This document shows, in pieces, positions 37,702 through 43,918 of a stretch of 64,000 nt of DNA; within the stretch, counting starts at the first letter, position 1, and every line of letters begins with the position of its first letter. The notes under the pieces are model-generated. The model did no database searches, was not told the origin of the DNA, and saw only the letters and a program-made list of their open reading frames with translations. The position numbers and the translations under genes were made by a program. The stretch comes from Hyphomonas jannaschiana VP2 (GTDB lineage: Bacteria > Pseudomonadota > Alphaproteobacteria > Caulobacterales > Hyphomonadaceae): positions 1 through 64,000 of the forward strand of contig NZ_ARYJ01000015.1 in NCBI RefSeq assembly GCF_000685215.1. The letters are read 5' to 3'.

Positions 37702-38139
37702 ATGCACCTGAGAAACGGAGACTGGGTGGTCGTCTGCGATGCCGGAAAATATGTCGTCTATGAAAATCAGGGCGATACGGACCGGCTGGACCTACGCGTC
37801 ATGAGCTTTGACGAAAACACCAATCCGCCAACTCACCAACAAGGATCAGACCGCCCCGGACGCTTCCCGGGACCGGCTGGACAGAATGCATCCGTTGGGA
37901 ATACGGACTGGCATGAACAGGAAGAAACGCGCTTTGTCTCAGCGCTGGCCAGACAAATGGACGGCTGGGCGACGGCCGAAACTTCACGCCGGTTCGTCTT
38001 GGTAGCAGACCCAAAATCCATGGGCATCCTGCGTCAGTCGTTGAATGACCATACATTGAGCCGGATAGATCATACCGTGACCGGAGACCACGCCCATCGC
38101 CCGGTTAAGGCCATCGAAGCGCTGATTAACGGGGCCTGA
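37702..38139 (+). CDS. Host-attachment-family protein
   Basis: 145 residues, cytosolic. The family pattern is visible: NGDWVVVCDAGKYVVYEN at the start, FVSALARQMDGWA, RRFVLVADPKSMGILRQSL and the close of the domain. The family was named after a plant-attachment phenotype; structurally it belongs to the eRF1/archaeal-release-factor-like (baeRF) group, so an RNA- or ribosome-related role is possible. A strong ribosome site (AGGGAGAAGG) precedes the ATG. It stands alone between the HlyD and DUF4010 genes. Confidence 0.85.
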   Translation: MHLRNGDWVVVCDAGKYVVYENQGDTDRLDLRVMSFDENTNPPTHQQGSDRPGRFPGPAGQNASVGNTDWHEQEETRFVSALARQMDGWATAETSRRFVLVADPKSMGILRQSLNDHTLSRIDHTVTGDHAHRPVKAIEALINGA

Positions 38140-38143
38140 CAGC

Positions 38144-39418
38144 TCAAGCCATTCCAAGGGCGCTCGCGGCAAACATCGCGATGCCCCCAACTGAAACTGT
38201 CAACGCACCGGTCAGCAGGACCAGCTTTCTGAAGTCCACTGCGCCCACACCGATGGCCAACATGACCTTGAACAAGGTGTTGACCACGACTGCGATGACG
38301 ATCGCACGCGCGGCGGTGAGGTCTGATAGATCAGCGGCACTCAATCGTCCCATGGAAAGCGTGACAGCATCCGCGTCCACTGCGCCTGCAATGGATGCCA
38401 CACCAAGGACGCCATTGTCTCCCCAAGCTTCCTGCGCGATGCGGGACAGCACAAGCGCCGCGGTCAGAACCGCAGCGAACACGATTGCCGATTTGAGGTC
38501 TAACGGGTTCGGAAGAGAGAGCGCGGCTTCTGTCTTCTCAGTCTGCCTCCGCAGCATGAGAGCGGCAGACAGCAACGGTACCGCAAACATGGCACCAAGC
38601 GGCAACCAAAGCACCGGCAGCAGGCTCGGGCGTATAAATGCAACGATCAGAGCCGTTCGTGCCACCATGACGGCCCAAGCCGCCGCAACACCGCCAGCAT
38701 AGGCGACCGAACGCCCGCCATCCTTTGATAGTTGAGACAATGACAAGGTGGCAGCTGTGGATGAGGCAAGCCCCCCAGCCAGTGCCAGCAAACCGACACC
38801 CGCACGTTCCCCCAACGCCTTGACGCCGACATATCCAACAAAACCGAGAGCGCTGATCAGTACGACCATCCACCAGATGTGGCGTGGGTTGATCACATCA
38901 TAAGGCCCGAACCCAATGTCAGGCATGGCGGGCAACACCACGATTGTGATCAATAACAGGCGCAGGAAAGCACTCATTTCATGAGCATCTATCCTTTCCA
39001 GCAGACGGTGCATCGGTTCCCGAAGCCAAAGGATAAAAGCCGCCACGACAGCTCCCCCACCTGCGAGTAACGGGGAGATTTTCACCGACACCGCCCCAAG
39101 ACTGAACGTGATCAGGGCCGCGACGGCGGTTGTCGCACTGACATTTCGTGTCTCATCGATTTGCGCTTCAAAGCCCTGGCGAAGCAGCAAGGCCAGGCCG
39201 ATTGCTCCTGCGGAAATAACAAATCCATTACCTCCGTCGAGAACGGCGACCAGGCCGCCGGATAAACCCATGAGGCCAAAAGTCCGGAATCCGGCGACAC
39301 GGCTGCCACTCGGATCCCCACGTTCCTTCCACCCCCGTTCCAATCCTACGATCAGACCGACAGCGAGTGACGCCAGCAGATTGACTGCCAGAGACAGGAC
39401 ATTTTCCGTTGCCTCCAA
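38144..39418 (-). CDS. MgtC/SapB-DUF4010 membrane protein
   Basis: 424 residues beginning at TTG, supported by GGGAGG five bases upstream. The N-terminal MgtC/SapB part (LLASLAVGLIVGLERGW, then LMGLSGGLVAVLDGG) is followed by the DUF4010 half, rich in small-residue helices, with about twelve membrane segments in all. MgtC relatives are linked to magnesium limitation and stress; the role of the fusion is unknown. Divergent from the nuclease-phosphorylase-PRPP operon. Confidence 0.88.
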   Translation of the reverse strand: MEATENVLSLAVNLLASLAVGLIVGLERGWKERGDPSGSRVAGFRTFGLMGLSGGLVAVLDGGNGFVISAGAIGLALLLRQGFEAQIDETRNVSATTAVAALITFSLGAVSVKISPLLAGGGAVVAAFILWLREPMHRLLERIDAHEMSAFLRLLLITIVVLPAMPDIGFGPYDVINPRHIWWMVVLISALGFVGYVGVKALGERAGVGLLALAGGLASSTAATLSLSQLSKDGGRSVAYAGGVAAAWAVMVARTALIVAFIRPSLLPVLWLPLGAMFAVPLLSAALMLRRQTEKTEAALSLPNPLDLKSAIVFAAVLTAALVLSRIAQEAWGDNGVLGVASIAGAVDADAVTLSMGRLSAADLSDLTAARAIVIAVVVNTLFKVMLAIGVGAVDFRKLVLLTGALTVSVGGIAMFAASALGMA

Positions 39419-39576: not shown

Positions 39577-40941
39577 ATGACTGACAAGATCACGTTTCTC
39601 GGCGGGGTTGGCACTGTAACCGGCTCAAAATACCTCGTCGAAACGCGAGGACAGCGAATTCTGGTGGATTGCGGCCTGTTCCAGGGGTTCAAACAGCTCC
39701 GGAACCGGAACTGGAAACCCTTGCCGATTGCACCAAAAGACATCGATACGGTCGTTCTGACTCATGCCCATATAGACCATTCAGGCTATCTGCCGCTTCT
39801 GGTTCGCGACGGGTTCAAAGGCAATATCCACGCAACCACGCCCACTCGAGACCTATGCAACATCCTTTTACCTGACAGCGGATACCTACAGGAACGCGAA
39901 GCTGATATGGCGAACCAGCAGGGCTTTTCCCGCCATCATCCGGCATTACCATTGTACACTCAGGAGGATGCCGAGGCCTGCCTGAAATCATTCCGGACTC
40001 ACGGATTCTCTGACATGGTCGAACTGGGAAATGGTGTGAGCGCCACATTCATCGAGGCCGGCCATATCCTCGGGGCGGCGTCTGTTCTGCTCGATACCGG
40101 CTCCACGAAGATCGCGTTCTCGGGCGATCTCGGCCGGTATGATAATCCGATCATGCATGATCCTGCCGGCATCAGGCACGCGGACTATGTCCTGGTGGAG
40201 TCCACCTATGGCGACACAGTTCATCCTGAGACCGATCCGGAAGATGCGCTCGAAGCGATCGTGAACCGTACTTTTCAGAGAGGCGGCACGGTCGTGATCC
40301 CGTCCTTTGCAGTGGGGCGGGCTCAGTCCCTTCTGTTTCATATCAGCCGGCTCCGGGCCAGCGGTCGTATTCCGGACATGCCAGTCTATCTCGACAGTCC
40401 GATGGCCATAAACGTCAGCGAACTATTTGTCCGCCATGCTGCGGCTCACAAACTCTCCCGGGAAGAGGCCCAGGCAGCATGTGATGTCGCAACCTACACC
40501 CGGATTAGCCAAGAGTCCCGAAAGCTCGATACAGAAATGATGCCCAAGATCATTATCTCGGCGAGCGGCATGGCCACGGGCGGGCGTATCCTGCACCACC
40601 TCAAAGTCTATGCGCCAGATGCCCGGAACACGATCTTGTTCGCTGGCTTTCAGGCCGGCGGAACCCGCGGCGCCGCGATGTTGGCCGGTACACGCAAGAT
40701 CAAGATTCATGGCGGTTATTACGAGGTGAATGCGGAGGTCCAGAATCTCCATATGCTGTCCGCCCATGCCGACTCAGATGAGCTCATGCGTTGGCTCGGT
40801 AATTTTGAAGCAGCGCCGAAGGAAACCTTTGTCGTGCATGGCGAAGCCACGGCCTCCGACACATTCCGGCATCGGATCAGCGAAGAACTCGGCTGGTCCT
40901 GCAGGGTTCCCGAGCAAGGCGAGACGCTGCGGCTGAAATGA
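39577..40941 (+). CDS. Metallo-beta-lactamase/beta-CASP RNA nuclease
   Basis: 454 residues from the ATG beginning MTDKITFLGGVGTVTGS; the frame stays open 20 codons upstream. Zinc motif THAHIDHSG (H63, H65, D67, H68), later metal residues in GHILGA and SGDLGR, the beta-CASP insert with ESTYGD and VIPSFAVGRAQSL, and the C-terminal RMMBL motif HGGYYEVNAEVQNLHMLSAHAD. It resembles CPSF73/YSH1-like exonucleases that degrade or process RNA. It overlaps the AMP phosphorylase-like gene by four bases (ATGA). Confidence 0.92.
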   Translation: MTDKITFLGGVGTVTGSKYLVETRGQRILVDCGLFQGFKQLRNRNWKPLPIAPKDIDTVVLTHAHIDHSGYLPLLVRDGFKGNIHATTPTRDLCNILLPDSGYLQEREADMANQQGFSRHHPALPLYTQEDAEACLKSFRTHGFSDMVELGNGVSATFIEAGHILGAASVLLDTGSTKIAFSGDLGRYDNPIMHDPAGIRHADYVLVESTYGDTVHPETDPEDALEAIVNRTFQRGGTVVIPSFAVGRAQSLLFHISRLRASGRIPDMPVYLDSPMAINVSELFVRHAAAHKLSREEAQAACDVATYTRISQESRKLDTEMMPKIIISASGMATGGRILHHLKVYAPDARNTILFAGFQAGGTRGAAMLAGTRKIKIHGGYYEVNAEVQNLHMLSAHADSDELMRWLGNFEAAPKETFVVHGEATASDTFRHRISEELGWSCRVPEQGETLRLK

Positions 40942-42446
40942 GCGATCACCCTACCAACCTGATGCACGTTCAGCGCCTGGGTGTGTTGACCCAGCATGAA
41001 CTGATTGTGCTGGTTCACGCGGACTGTCCTGTGTGCCGGTCCGAAGGCATGAGCGCCCACAGCCAGGTGACCATAACACATGGCGACAATTCCATCATCG
41101 CCACGCTTTATCAGGTGACGGAAGACTGGTTGCCGGTTGGCACTGTCGGCCTGGCAGATTTGGCATGGGAACGTCTTGGTGTTGAAGCCGGAGACACAGT
41201 TCGAATCACGCACGCCCCACCTCTGATGTCATTGGGGTTTGTACGCCAACGCATCTTTGATGATGGTCTTAATGAAGCTCAGATCCGGGAGATCGTTACC
41301 GATATTGTGCGAGGAGCCTATTCGGACATTCATTTGACCGCCTTTGTGACCGCAACCGCCGCGAAGCCTCTGTCTACGCGCGAAGTCATATCCCTCACCC
41401 GCGCCATGATCGACACCGGAGACCGTATCGACTGGGGTGTGACACCCGTTGCGGACAAACATTGCGTTGGCGGTCTGCCTGCCAATCGCACAACACCCAT
41501 CGTCGTCTCAATCGCAGCTGCCAACGGACTGCTCATTCCGAAGACCTCATCGCGCGCAATCACATCCCCCGCCGGGACGGCGGACACGATGGAAACGCTG
41601 ACACGGGTGGACCTGAACAGGGACGAATTGCGCAAAGTGATTCAGACCGAAGGCGGTTGCTTCATCTGGGGAGATGCAGTCGATTTTTCGCCGGCTGATA
41701 CGGCGATTATTCGTGTTGAACGTGCACTGAATTTTGACTCGGCCGGCTCCATGGTAGCGTCTGTTTTGTCCAAGAAAATCGCAGCCGGCGCGACGCATGT
41801 CGTCATCGACATTCCAGTCGGTCCGACTGCAAAAATCCGGAATCGTGCACAGGCGCGGGACCTGGCCGACCTGTTTACGACGGTTGCCAGCACGTTCGGC
41901 CTGGCACTGCGTATAGAAGTGTCCGATGGGTCACAACCGATCGGGCGCGGTATCGGCCCGGCGCTGGAAGCCCGCGATGTCGTTAATGTACTGAAACGTG
42001 CGCCGAACGCCCCGCAAGATCTGAGGGAAAAATCGCTCACTCTTGCTGGCGCGGTTCTGGAGCTGACAGAAAAAGCCGGAACAGGTGAAGGGCTGGCGAT
42101 TGCAACCGAAACACTCGACAGTGGGCGAGCATGGGACAAATTCCTTGCCATCTGCAAGGCTCAGGGCGGCGTTTTTGATCCACCAGTCGCAAAATTCCAG
42201 CGGCCAGTGAATGCCACCCGCAGTGGCCGTGTTGCCGCCATCGACAATCACCGTCTGGCCCGCGTGGCAAAACTTGCCGGTGCCCCGGACGACAAGGCCG
42301 CAGGCCTGGACCTGCATGTGCGGATCGGTGACGCTGTGCGGCAGGGCACTCCCTTGTATACTCTACACACAGAATCCATTGGCGAGCTGACCTATGTGCT
42401 CGACTATGTGAAATCCAACCCAGACATTATTGAGCTGACACGATGA
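40938..42446 (+). CDS. Archaeal-type AMP/nucleoside phosphorylase
   Basis: 502 residues, longer than bacterial thymidine phosphorylase because of an N-terminal domain of about 90 residues. The phosphorylase core reads DKHCVGGLPANRTTPIVV, PKTSSRAITSPAGTADTMET and IPVGPTAKI, as in the archaeal AMP phosphorylase family (TIGR02645 type) and unlike DeoA. Known enzymes of the family turn NMP and phosphate into base and ribose-1,5-bisphosphate. Fused by ATGA overlaps to an RNA nuclease before it and a PRPP synthetase-like enzyme after it. Substrate assignment is inference. Confidence 0.9.
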   Translation: MSDHPTNLMHVQRLGVLTQHELIVLVHADCPVCRSEGMSAHSQVTITHGDNSIIATLYQVTEDWLPVGTVGLADLAWERLGVEAGDTVRITHAPPLMSLGFVRQRIFDDGLNEAQIREIVTDIVRGAYSDIHLTAFVTATAAKPLSTREVISLTRAMIDTGDRIDWGVTPVADKHCVGGLPANRTTPIVVSIAAANGLLIPKTSSRAITSPAGTADTMETLTRVDLNRDELRKVIQTEGGCFIWGDAVDFSPADTAIIRVERALNFDSAGSMVASVLSKKIAAGATHVVIDIPVGPTAKIRNRAQARDLADLFTTVASTFGLALRIEVSDGSQPIGRGIGPALEARDVVNVLKRAPNAPQDLREKSLTLAGAVLELTEKAGTGEGLAIATETLDSGRAWDKFLAICKAQGGVFDPPVAKFQRPVNATRSGRVAAIDNHRLARVAKLAGAPDDKAAGLDLHVRIGDAVRQGTPLYTLHTESIGELTYVLDYVKSNPDIIELTR

Positions 42447-43342
42447 CGCGCTTCCTCCTCTATTTCCTCCCGGGCACGGGCCATCTTGCAGCCCCACTCG
42501 CCCATGAACTCGGCGCCGACATCGGTGAAATCGAGTTCCACAAATTTCCTGACGGTGAAAGCTATCTGCGCTTTCTTACGCCTCCTGACGGCCGGCATAT
42601 CGCGCTTGTGGACTGCCTTGACCATCCGGATCCGAAATTGGTCCCACTCCTGTTCGCAGCGATGACAGCAAAGGAACTCGGCGCAAACTCGGTCGGCCTG
42701 ATCGCCCCCTATATGCCGTATTTTAGGCAGGACATCGCGTTCAATCGCGGAGAATCAATCAGTGCCCGTCACATCGGCTCGCTACTCTCTGCTCACCTCT
42801 CCTGGGTCACGACACTTGATCCGCATCTGCACAGACTCGCCAGCCTGGACGATGTGTTCACCATTCCTGGCGAACTCGCTCATGCAACGGCGCCAATCGC
42901 GCGCTGGATCAAGGAGCATATCGACAAGCCGATCATCTACGGCCCTGACGTAGAAAGCGAGCAATGGGTTCGCGCTATCGCGGAAGCCTGCAATGCTCCC
43001 TACGACGTGTTCCGCAAAACGCGGAATGGCGACAAGGATGTTCAGATCGACGTGCCTGCCGGTATTGACGCCGGTGACCACACGCCTGTCATCGTAGACG
43101 ATATTATTTCGTCCGGCACCACGCTCGCAACTTTGGTGCGTGCCCTTTGCGAAAGCGGCCAGCCACGTCCCATCTGCTGCGCGGTGCACGGCATTTTCGC
43201 CGATGGCGCCTATGAGGAACTGATCGCCGCCGGCGCAGCCCGTGTCGTCACCACCAACGCGTTGCCCCACAAGACAAATGCTATCGACGTAACGAAGGTC
43301 CTGGCCGAAGCAGCGCGCCGAATAGACCTACCGCAGGATTGA
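42443..43342 (+). CDS. Divergent ribose-phosphate pyrophosphokinase
   Basis: 299 residues, slightly short for a PRPP synthetase. PRPP loop VIVDDIISSGTTL, ATP/regulatory stretch YMPYFRQDIAFNRGESISA, and the C-terminal ADGAYEELIAAGAARVVTTNA are recognisable, but the flexible loop (RKTRNGDKDVQID) and several positions differ from housekeeping Prs. It may make PRPP from ribose-5-phosphate, or have adapted to the ribose-1,5-bisphosphate produced by its operon partner. Overlaps the phosphorylase gene by four bases. Probably not the only Prs of the cell. Confidence 0.9.
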   Translation: MTRFLLYFLPGTGHLAAPLAHELGADIGEIEFHKFPDGESYLRFLTPPDGRHIALVDCLDHPDPKLVPLLFAAMTAKELGANSVGLIAPYMPYFRQDIAFNRGESISARHIGSLLSAHLSWVTTLDPHLHRLASLDDVFTIPGELAHATAPIARWIKEHIDKPIIYGPDVESEQWVRAIAEACNAPYDVFRKTRNGDKDVQIDVPAGIDAGDHTPVIVDDIISSGTTLATLVRALCESGQPRPICCAVHGIFADGAYEELIAAGAARVVTTNALPHKTNAIDVTKVLAEAARRIDLPQD

Positions 43343-43387: not shown

Positions 43388-43918
43388 ATGTTTGACGTCC
43401 ATAGCTTTGTCGCCGACTGCCGCGACGCCGTATCGAAGGATCCAACGCATCGCGCCGTTCTGGAAGTGATGGAGTCGGCCTTCCACGCCCCTGACGCAAT
43501 TCTGAAGGCAGTTGGGGAGCCTTCGGGTGCCAGCATCGATGTGCTGCACCGTTCGAATACGCTTACAGTGCTGAATGTCGTCTGGGGTGCACACGCAACG
43601 CTGATGCCCCACAATCACGAAATGTGGGCGATCATCGGAATTTACACCGGCCGGGAAGACAACATTTTCTGGCGCCGGACGAAAGACGACCCAACCCGCG
43701 TTGAGGCCGCCGGGGCGCGCACTCTTCTTGCCGGAGACGTCGCACCACTGGGCAAGGACATCATTCACTCCGTGACCAATCCGCTGGGCAGACCCACCGG
43801 AGCAATCCATGTGTACGGGGGTGACTTCTTCGCCCAGCCACGCAGCGAATGGGATGAAGAAAGCCTGGCCGAGCGCCCCTATGACATCGAGCGAGTCAAA
43901 GCCTTTTTCGCCAGCTGA
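43388..43918 (+). CDS. Cupin, cysteine-dioxygenase-like
   Basis: 176 residues with a single cupin barrel. The metal site follows the 3-His pattern of thiol dioxygenases: HNHE (His75, His77) and His127 in DIIHSVTNP, then TGAIHVYGGDFF. Reaction may be oxidation of a small thiol, but the substrate is unknown. It follows the PRPP synthetase-like gene after 45 bases, with its own GGGAGGAGAG ribosome site, so it may or may not be part of that transcript. Convergent with the hydrolase/flavin-reductase fusion. Confidence 0.8.
   Translation: MFDVHSFVADCRDAVSKDPTHRAVLEVMESAFHAPDAILKAVGEPSGASIDVLHRSNTLTVLNVVWGAHATLMPHNHEMWAIIGIYTGREDNIFWRRTKDDPTRVEAAGARTLLAGDVAPLGKDIIHSVTNPLGRPTGAIHVYGGDFFAQPRSEWDEESLAERPYDIERVKAFFAS

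Follow-up and report, generated by a model that had tools for sequence, protein, structure and literature searches.

What might three overlapping genes for a ribonuclease, a nucleotide phosphorylase and a relative of phosphoribosyl pyrophosphate (PRPP) synthetase achieve together? The question arises in the first 64,000 nucleotides of contig NZ_ARYJ01000015.1 of Hyphomonas jannaschiana VP2 (GCF_000685215.1), referred to here as the window. Three plus-strand open reading frames (ORFs) at 39577-43342 encode a beta-CASP/RMMBL metallo-beta-lactamase-fold nuclease (P0001, 454 aa, 39577..40941), a nucleoside monophosphate (NMP; AMP)-phosphorylase-type enzyme (P0002, 502 aa, 40938..42446), and a PRPP synthetase (Prs)-like protein (P0003, 299 aa, 42443..43342). 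The sequence itself shows a 4-base ATGA overlap at each of the two junctions, where the start of one gene overlaps the stop of the preceding one. A preliminary description had proposed this layout, which is confirmed, and had read it as a candidate operon leading from RNA to ribose phosphate, with the Prs-like enzyme making PRPP or running the route in reverse. The conserved core, however, is the pair of NMP-phosphorylase-type enzyme and Prs-like protein instead of the trio. This pair is tentatively interpreted as a bridge of two enzymes that would connect nucleotides with pentose-phosphate metabolism, RNase-fed in some genomes, with ribose-1,5-bisphosphate (R15P) + AMP → ribose-5-phosphate (R5P) + ADP as the central step, a reading which may well prove wrong. 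Its role is probably to strip sugar-phosphate from RNA building blocks and, under oxygen shortage, to feed it into energy metabolism.

The composition of the core was established in 120 genomes drawn evenly from Pseudomonadota, including that of the window and one of its genus, together with 14 control genomes. The genomes over cut-off for the phosphorylase family are the same 18 of the 120 as those over cut-off for PRK07199 Prs (Fisher p about 1e-21, uncorrected for shared ancestry), and at 19/19 phosphorylase genes in these genomes a Prs-like gene lies directly downstream on the same strand. The nuclease adjoins the pair, on either side, in 6/18 of these genomes, with a contig end hiding one side in three of the other 12 (G003, G036, G086). 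Loci were also sorted into 54 groups, 31 made at 75% identity and 23 unclustered single loci, of which L174 belongs with the group of the window and others may be redundant. A Prs-like gene lies ≤400 bp downstream of the phosphorylase in 48 of these groups and a nuclease is present in 26. The six groups without an adjacent Prs-like gene are L015 (contig end), L039 (5.9 kb gap), L055, L084, L087, and L088. The position of the nuclease varies as well, being first in the window operon and last in L091, L092, L169, and L170. The nuclease is an optional member outside the conserved core. The expectation that the genes stay together elsewhere therefore holds for the pair but not for the nuclease, so the pathway need not begin at RNA as first supposed.

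P0002 exceeds the cut-offs of PRK04350 (651.9 bits, cut-off 434) and TIGR02645 (568.4 bits, cut-off 434.6) and falls below that of the NCBIfam AMP_phos equivalog TIGR03327 (484.7 bits vs. 535). Its nearest solved relative is 4ga5, deposited as a 'putative thymidine phosphorylase', which we take to be the AMP phosphorylase of Thermococcus kodakarensis. The motif KTSSRAITSPAGTAD (residues 202-216, 41541..41585, plus strand) is common to P0002 and 4ga5 and unlike that of pyrimidine-nucleoside phosphorylases; this contrast comes from PDB alignments, in which P0002, like 4ga5, carries a KTSSRAITSxAGTAD-type active-site motif in place of the nucleoside-phosphorylase type of 7m7k, 5oln, and 5ep8. With minor changes the motif is kept in 102/102 phosphorylases of the cluster. 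A CxxC in the N-terminus was dropped as a conserved mark; it had been part of the seed for the genome scan, and it is missing in 16/102 phosphorylases, 15 of them in the unseeded survey loci L160-L176. The two family matches and the nearest structure uphold the archaeal NMP-phosphorylase type given earlier, and there is a strong case that the enzyme would split NMP + Pi into base and alpha-R15P.

The fate of this product is the central problem. In the genome of the window (3.64 Mb, 30 contigs) there are no matches to RuBisCO or to the IF-2B/R15P-isomerase family, for which the same searches were positive in 5/14 and 9/14 controls, respectively, and no PhnN exceeds the cut-off (best 38 bits vs. 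156). The genome search suggested in the preliminary description was thus negative for all three enzymes, and R15P would therefore have no known outlet here. There is one ordinary Prs, encoded on contig C8 (401 bits). All 18 module-bearing genomes have one or more additional Prs matches that stay below the PRK07199 cut-off; these are ordinary by score, with the loop inspected in the genome of the window alone (L093). The paired Prs-like protein is therefore not required for PRPP supply.

P0003 exceeds the cut-offs of both PRK07199 (361.1 bits, cut-off 322) and the general Prs model TIGR01251 (187.8 bits, cut-off 113). Its AlphaFold2 model (pLDDT 92.6) has a clear Prs fold, with 3mbi as the best match (TMq 0.90) and PRPP synthetases making up all of the best 50 Foldseek matches. 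The pyrophosphate loop is altered, reading GPDVESEQW at residues 167-175 (42941..42967, plus strand; assigned to the loop by our own motif-based mapping) where ordinary Prs has SPDxGG. Across the cluster the loop is GPDxE[SA]xxW, with Gly167, Glu171, and Trp175 in 81/81 distinct sequences, whereas 13/13 ordinary Prs have the Gly-Gly loop. The latter comprise the Prs of the genome itself and 12 sub-cut-off survey matches, all from module-free survey genomes; left out of the comparison were duplicates, the divergent Prs of L176, and Prs matches whose alignment covered ≤200 residues, the truncated gene of L043 being one example. P0003 has neither Gly-Gly nor Gly-Ala at this site, where the aligned loops of three archaeal solved relatives have Gly-Ala, Gly-Ala, and Gly-Gly. 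The 5-phosphate loop is altered too, with D replaced by S or A in 81/81 sequences and the second Gly replaced in 78/81.

The catalytic Lys, Arg, His, and Asp residues are kept in the Prs-like cluster. D169, K192, and R194 of P0003 are among the positions kept in ≥97% of cluster and ordinary sequences and match, in our mapping by motif, human D171, K194, and R196, described in the available text of PMC12238573 as metal, ATP, and R5P residues, respectively, alongside the pyrophosphate loop named there. As the loop signature separates 81/81 from 13/13 sequences while the catalytic residues are kept, the Prs-like protein is more likely to be an active, re-tuned enzyme than a pseudoenzyme. The divergent PRPP synthetase of the preliminary description is thus borne out by the PRK07199 match and the altered loop. 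A third Prs type, 29% identical to P0003 and with an SPDAGG loop, occurs ~5 kb from a module in genome G087 (L176 2407-3408), where it is not adjacent to the phosphorylase.

These changes can be related to Prs chemistry. The alpha anomer released by NMP phosphorolysis is the anomer needed by Prs chemistry. In the reverse Prs reaction AMP would attack the C1-bound phosphorus of PRPP and take both phosphates, giving ATP and R5P. If R15P replaced PRPP, attack on the same phosphorus of the same anomer by the same acceptor would give ADP and R5P; there would be no second sugar phosphate, the terminal phosphate would not have to be bound, and the invariant Glu of the pyrophosphate loop would exclude an extra phosphate. 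The phosphorylase step expected from its family, NMP + Pi → base + alpha-R15P, would then be followed by transfer of the C1 phosphate of R15P to AMP by the Prs-like enzyme, and the pair would carry out NMP + Pi + AMP → base + R5P + ADP overall. R5P is judged more likely than PRPP, the product first assumed, because of the altered pyrophosphate loop, the ordinary Prs in the genome, and the phosphoketolase-type genes that several lineages carry next to the module.

From R5P onwards, known enzymes that are linked to the module by context in some lineages could continue the route through xylulose-5-phosphate and phosphoketolase to acetyl-phosphate and glyceraldehyde-3-phosphate, with acetate kinase making ATP from the former. 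In this way cells short of oxygen or energy would draw usable energy from the sugar of RNA or NMPs and need neither RuBisCO nor R15P isomerase nor PhnN. The nuclease neighbours at the input end and phosphoketolase at the output end would fit the two ends of such a bridge. A much broader claim is that PRK07199 'ribose-phosphate diphosphokinases' are R15P:AMP phosphotransferases (reversible R5P:ADP phosphotransferases), which arose from an archaeal-type PRPP synthase by a Gly-Gly to Glu-Ser change in the pyrophosphate loop and close a widespread bacterial RuBisCO-free low-oxygen route to ATP and carbon from RNA and nucleotides, in some lineages through phosphoketolase-type enzymes. It is rather doubtful that this holds in full.

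At the input end, Pfam Beta-Casp, RMMBL, and Lactamase_B are all over cut-off in P0001 and its nearest solved relative is the RNase TTHA0252 (2dkf, E 2.2e-68); it scores below the aCPSF1 and Cas14 equivalog cut-offs (279.4 < 580.2 and 383.7 < 800, respectively). In Solimonas aquatica (L082 8180-11497) the assembly shows nuclease and phosphorylase as one continuous open frame of 1,105 residues, in which the aligned parts are separated by 11 residues. This frame, and a linkage that recurs in both orders, argue for a place in the pathway. The low counts beside the pair and the variable position in the operon would instead suit a nuclease outside it, one that takes part in RNA processing or in regulation and shares control with the pair merely as another low-oxygen function. 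This view is quite conceivable, if somewhat doubtful.

The output end is best seen in a second set of genes on contig C2 of the same genome. Here the order is phosphoketolase-like gene, nuclease, phosphorylase, and Prs-like gene, with a 4-base overlap at every junction; the phosphorylases of the two copies are 54% identical and the Prs-like proteins 45%. Both copy types also occur in four further assemblies titled Hyphomonas, Henriciella, or Rhodobacterales (L007/L027, L008/L035, L009/L026, L010/L029). The leading protein, P0008 (L004 11646-14033, G000:C2), is a divergent phosphoketolase-like protein with Pfam XFP and XFP_N over cut-off, and its gene is the sole match to the phosphoketolase N-terminal family in the genome. 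It scores 117.9 bits against cut-offs of at least 777 in six NCBIfam phosphoketolase models. Related forms, 50-57% identical to P0008, adjoin the module in L053, L069, and G003 (L175). An acetate kinase gene shares the contig of the window (C15:64711-65865).

Phosphoketolase-type genes lie upstream of the module in 11/12 loci of the second-copy group and downstream of it in Tahibacter and Arenimonas, and also in G003. A full-length phosphoketolase is found 0.7 kb downstream of the module in G076. The phosphoketolase count over the 54 groups used the divergent P0008 as query, and the full-length one of L162 was added separately. In a Brevundimonas metagenome-assembled genome (L084 4203-10116) the module includes the nuclease and has a partial phosphoketolase upstream at the contig end. 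By eye, the downstream ORFs of this locus resemble a PEP synthase/PPDK and a HAD-sugar phosphorylase fusion.

For Bradyrhizobium diazoefficiens, published tables back the low-oxygen use proposed in the preliminary description. Its bll3117-bll3116-bll3115 genes form one predicted operon and, by product name, belong to the three families of the window operon, with the order phosphorylase-Prs-nuclease as opposed to nuclease-phosphorylase-Prs in the window. All three, together with the phosphoketolase bll2518, are among the 62 proteins tabulated as the core microoxic proteome (PMC6515984). Table 2 of PMC9104804 assigns FixK2 boxes to two predicted operons, bll3117-3116-3115 and the phosphoketolase-acetate kinase operon bll2518-2517, and reports falls of 6.6-fold for bll3117, 30.6-fold for bll3115, 10.0-fold for bll2518, and 10.2-fold for bll2517 in a fixK2 deletion mutant at 0.5% O2. 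In the available text of these two papers no link is drawn between the two operons and no function is proposed. Among the module groups, an FNR/FixK-like box lies upstream of 7/47 (corrected for loci with the gene start off the contig: L012, L024, L049, L084) vs. 3.1% of 985 control regions (p = 6e-4), a rough comparison as the controls are upstream of all long ORFs, some of which are surely non-genes.

Several observations weigh against the proposed bridge. The phosphorylase can exist without a Prs-like partner, as the controls include 3/14 genomes with the phosphorylase family over cut-off and 0/14 with PRK07199, and the phosphorylases of L055 and L084 have no Prs-like gene in the 10 kb downstream. 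Enrichment of phosphoketolase in genomes with the module is mild and not significant (6/18 vs. 14/102 other genomes, p = 0.078), and phosphoketolase was rejected as a genome-wide partner on this ground. It cannot be the general outlet, and other R5P outlets must serve in most module-bearing genomes. The divergence of P0008 from the phosphoketolase models also leaves its own substrate uncertain. The table in PMC6515984 marks the Bradyrhizobium genes '-' both for FixK2 targets and for soybean bacteroid induction, which weakens the case from the later FixK2 table in PMC9104804. An FNR/FixK box is absent before both copies in the genome of the window, where the 300 bases upstream of the window operon contain none with <3 mismatches. 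Finally, thermodynamics at equal concentrations favour the opposite direction, NMP synthesis, and the direction of the proposed reactions is not settled.

Run in that opposite direction, the Prs-like enzyme would convert R5P + ADP to R15P + AMP and the phosphorylase would join R15P and base to give NMP + Pi, a form of base salvage that spends ADP and not ATP or PRPP. Both steps are expected to be reversible, and nucleoside-phosphorylase equilibria favour synthesis. The archaeal NMP shunt, as set out in the available text of PMC9700705, likewise permits both NMP → R15P and nucleoside → R15P → NMP. Synthesis is nonetheless considered unlikely here, as the nuclease and phosphoketolase neighbours and the nuclease-phosphorylase open frame point to breakdown, as does the co-regulation with phosphoketolase and acetate kinase at low oxygen in the tables of PMC9104804. 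A different possibility keeps the direction and changes the product: the Prs-like enzyme may turn R15P into PRPP, the job of PhnN, so that nucleotide sugar would be salvaged straight to PRPP. Two plasmid loci, the two fusions among 60 plasmid records listed of 116 matched, lend this some weight. A PhnN is annotated as fused to the phosphorylase on plasmid 4 of Variovorax sp. SRS16 (L087 8227-10380, confirmed by Pfam), and a PhnN-phosphorylase fusion is found by annotation alone on pDY25-A of Pacificitalea manganoxidans (L088 8227-10353). In neither is there a Prs-like gene within about 9 kb, and PhnN may replace the Prs-like partner in these fusions. Just upstream of both lies nadC, encoding a PRPP-using enzyme, and the arrangement may possibly represent an NMP → R15P → PRPP → nicotinic acid mononucleotide (NaMN) route. 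In Variovorax, bug27 lies beside nadC and phnN, and the PRPP of PhnN is tied to NadC in the available text of PMC11452294. For the Prs-like protein itself the same product is improbable, as the Glu of the pyrophosphate loop would be expected to work against a diphosphate-ended product and a further Prs match is present in each of the 18 genomes. Moreover, phosphorylation of a 1-phosphate is established as kinase chemistry and not Prs chemistry.

The Prs-like protein could also be an ordinary PRPP synthase paralogue that is incidentally co-transcribed and perhaps works backwards (PRPP + AMP → R5P + ATP). It passes the general Prs cut-off, adopts the Prs fold, and keeps the catalytic Lys, Arg, His, and Asp residues, all of which suit this explanation. 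It is nevertheless distinctly improbable, given that every cluster sequence has an altered pyrophosphate loop and nearly all have lost the second Gly of the 5-phosphate loop. The strict pairing would also be left without a pathway logic, since the phosphorylase should yield R15P and not PRPP.

Phosphate transfer from R15P to AMP, the preferred reading, would set the module apart from the known systems that it resembles. The archaeal pentose-bisphosphate pathway or NMP shunt of T. kodakarensis (AMP phosphorylase, R15P isomerase, RuBisCO) is alike in the type of phosphorylase, its motif, and the presumed R15P intermediate. It differs in that the genome of the window has neither the isomerase family nor RuBisCO and that the Prs-like protein is the constant partner. 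The PhnN route from R15P to PRPP, part of phosphonate and NAD metabolism, is another known way to use R15P, and the two plasmids described above carry PhnN annotated as fused to this type of phosphorylase; in the genome of the window, however, PhnN is not over cut-off. The fold of PhnN also differs from that of Prs. In fold and catalytic residues the Prs-like proteins resemble archaeal Class III PRPP synthases (Methanocaldococcus jannaschii, Thermoplasma volcanium), which are the closest sequences and structures to P0003, but they differ by the change from DxG[GA] to DxE[SA] in the pyrophosphate loop, a mostly altered 5-phosphate loop, and the linkage to a phosphorylase. The phosphoketolase-acetate kinase bypass is comparable through the adjacent phosphoketolase-type genes in several lineages and the co-regulation in Bradyrhizobium, but it is found in a minority of the module-bearing survey genomes and the protein of the second copy is divergent.

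The available text of PMC9700705 describes the archaeal NMP shunt and suggests it as possible in some bacteria. New bacterial PRPS classes are set out in a 2026 preprint (PMC13252144), and the word 'phosphorylase' is absent from its main text as available. A literature search with little reach into subscription journals found no study assigning a function to the bacterial phosphorylase/Prs-like pair. If correct, the proposed bridge would explain many genes annotated 'thymidine phosphorylase family protein' and 'ribose-phosphate pyrophosphokinase', the pair being present in 18/120 sampled genomes, and would add a third metabolic fate of R15P beside RuBisCO and PhnN. Environmental bacteria and symbionts would also gain a way of surviving low oxygen through the turnover of RNA or nucleotides. 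The clear residue signature makes the enzymology of the Prs-like protein testable.

Genes around the module add less. Directly downstream of P0003 in the window lies P0004, a thiol-dioxygenase-like cupin (43388..43918, plus strand) with weak matches only, to 3-mercaptopropionate dioxygenase (E 9e-7). Among the loci searched its gene occurs solely beside window-type copies (L007-L009, L174), and it is judged to be outside the module despite the shared strand, being restricted to close relatives of the window copy. The preliminary description also mentioned stress and low-oxygen genes nearby. A scan of 30 neighbouring ORFs bears this out in part, with an attachment/baeRF12 protein, an MgtC/DUF4010 protein, a cytochrome c, and a ribonucleotide reductase large chain among them, but without an upstream FNR/FixK box. 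Nine neighbours from survey loci L160, L161, and L172 were annotated as NfeD, SPFH, SBP_bac_5, glyoxalase, Nudix, and others, with no consistent extra enzyme among them. A copper-type P-type ATPase and an ICMT-like protein recur near loci mostly of Sphingomonadaceae; these look like resistance islands and were set aside as saying little on function.

The attachment/baeRF12 gene and, on the opposite strand, the MgtC/DUF4010 gene lie just upstream of the module (window 37702-38139 and 38147-39418). A host attachment protein, bll4645, is an entry in the Bradyrhizobium microoxia table (PMC6515984). An MgtC/SapB gene is also found upstream of the module on a Phenylobacterium plasmid (L089), and on a Legionella anisa plasmid (L090) the phosphorylase/Prs-like pair is followed directly by an alternate F1F0-ATPase gene set.

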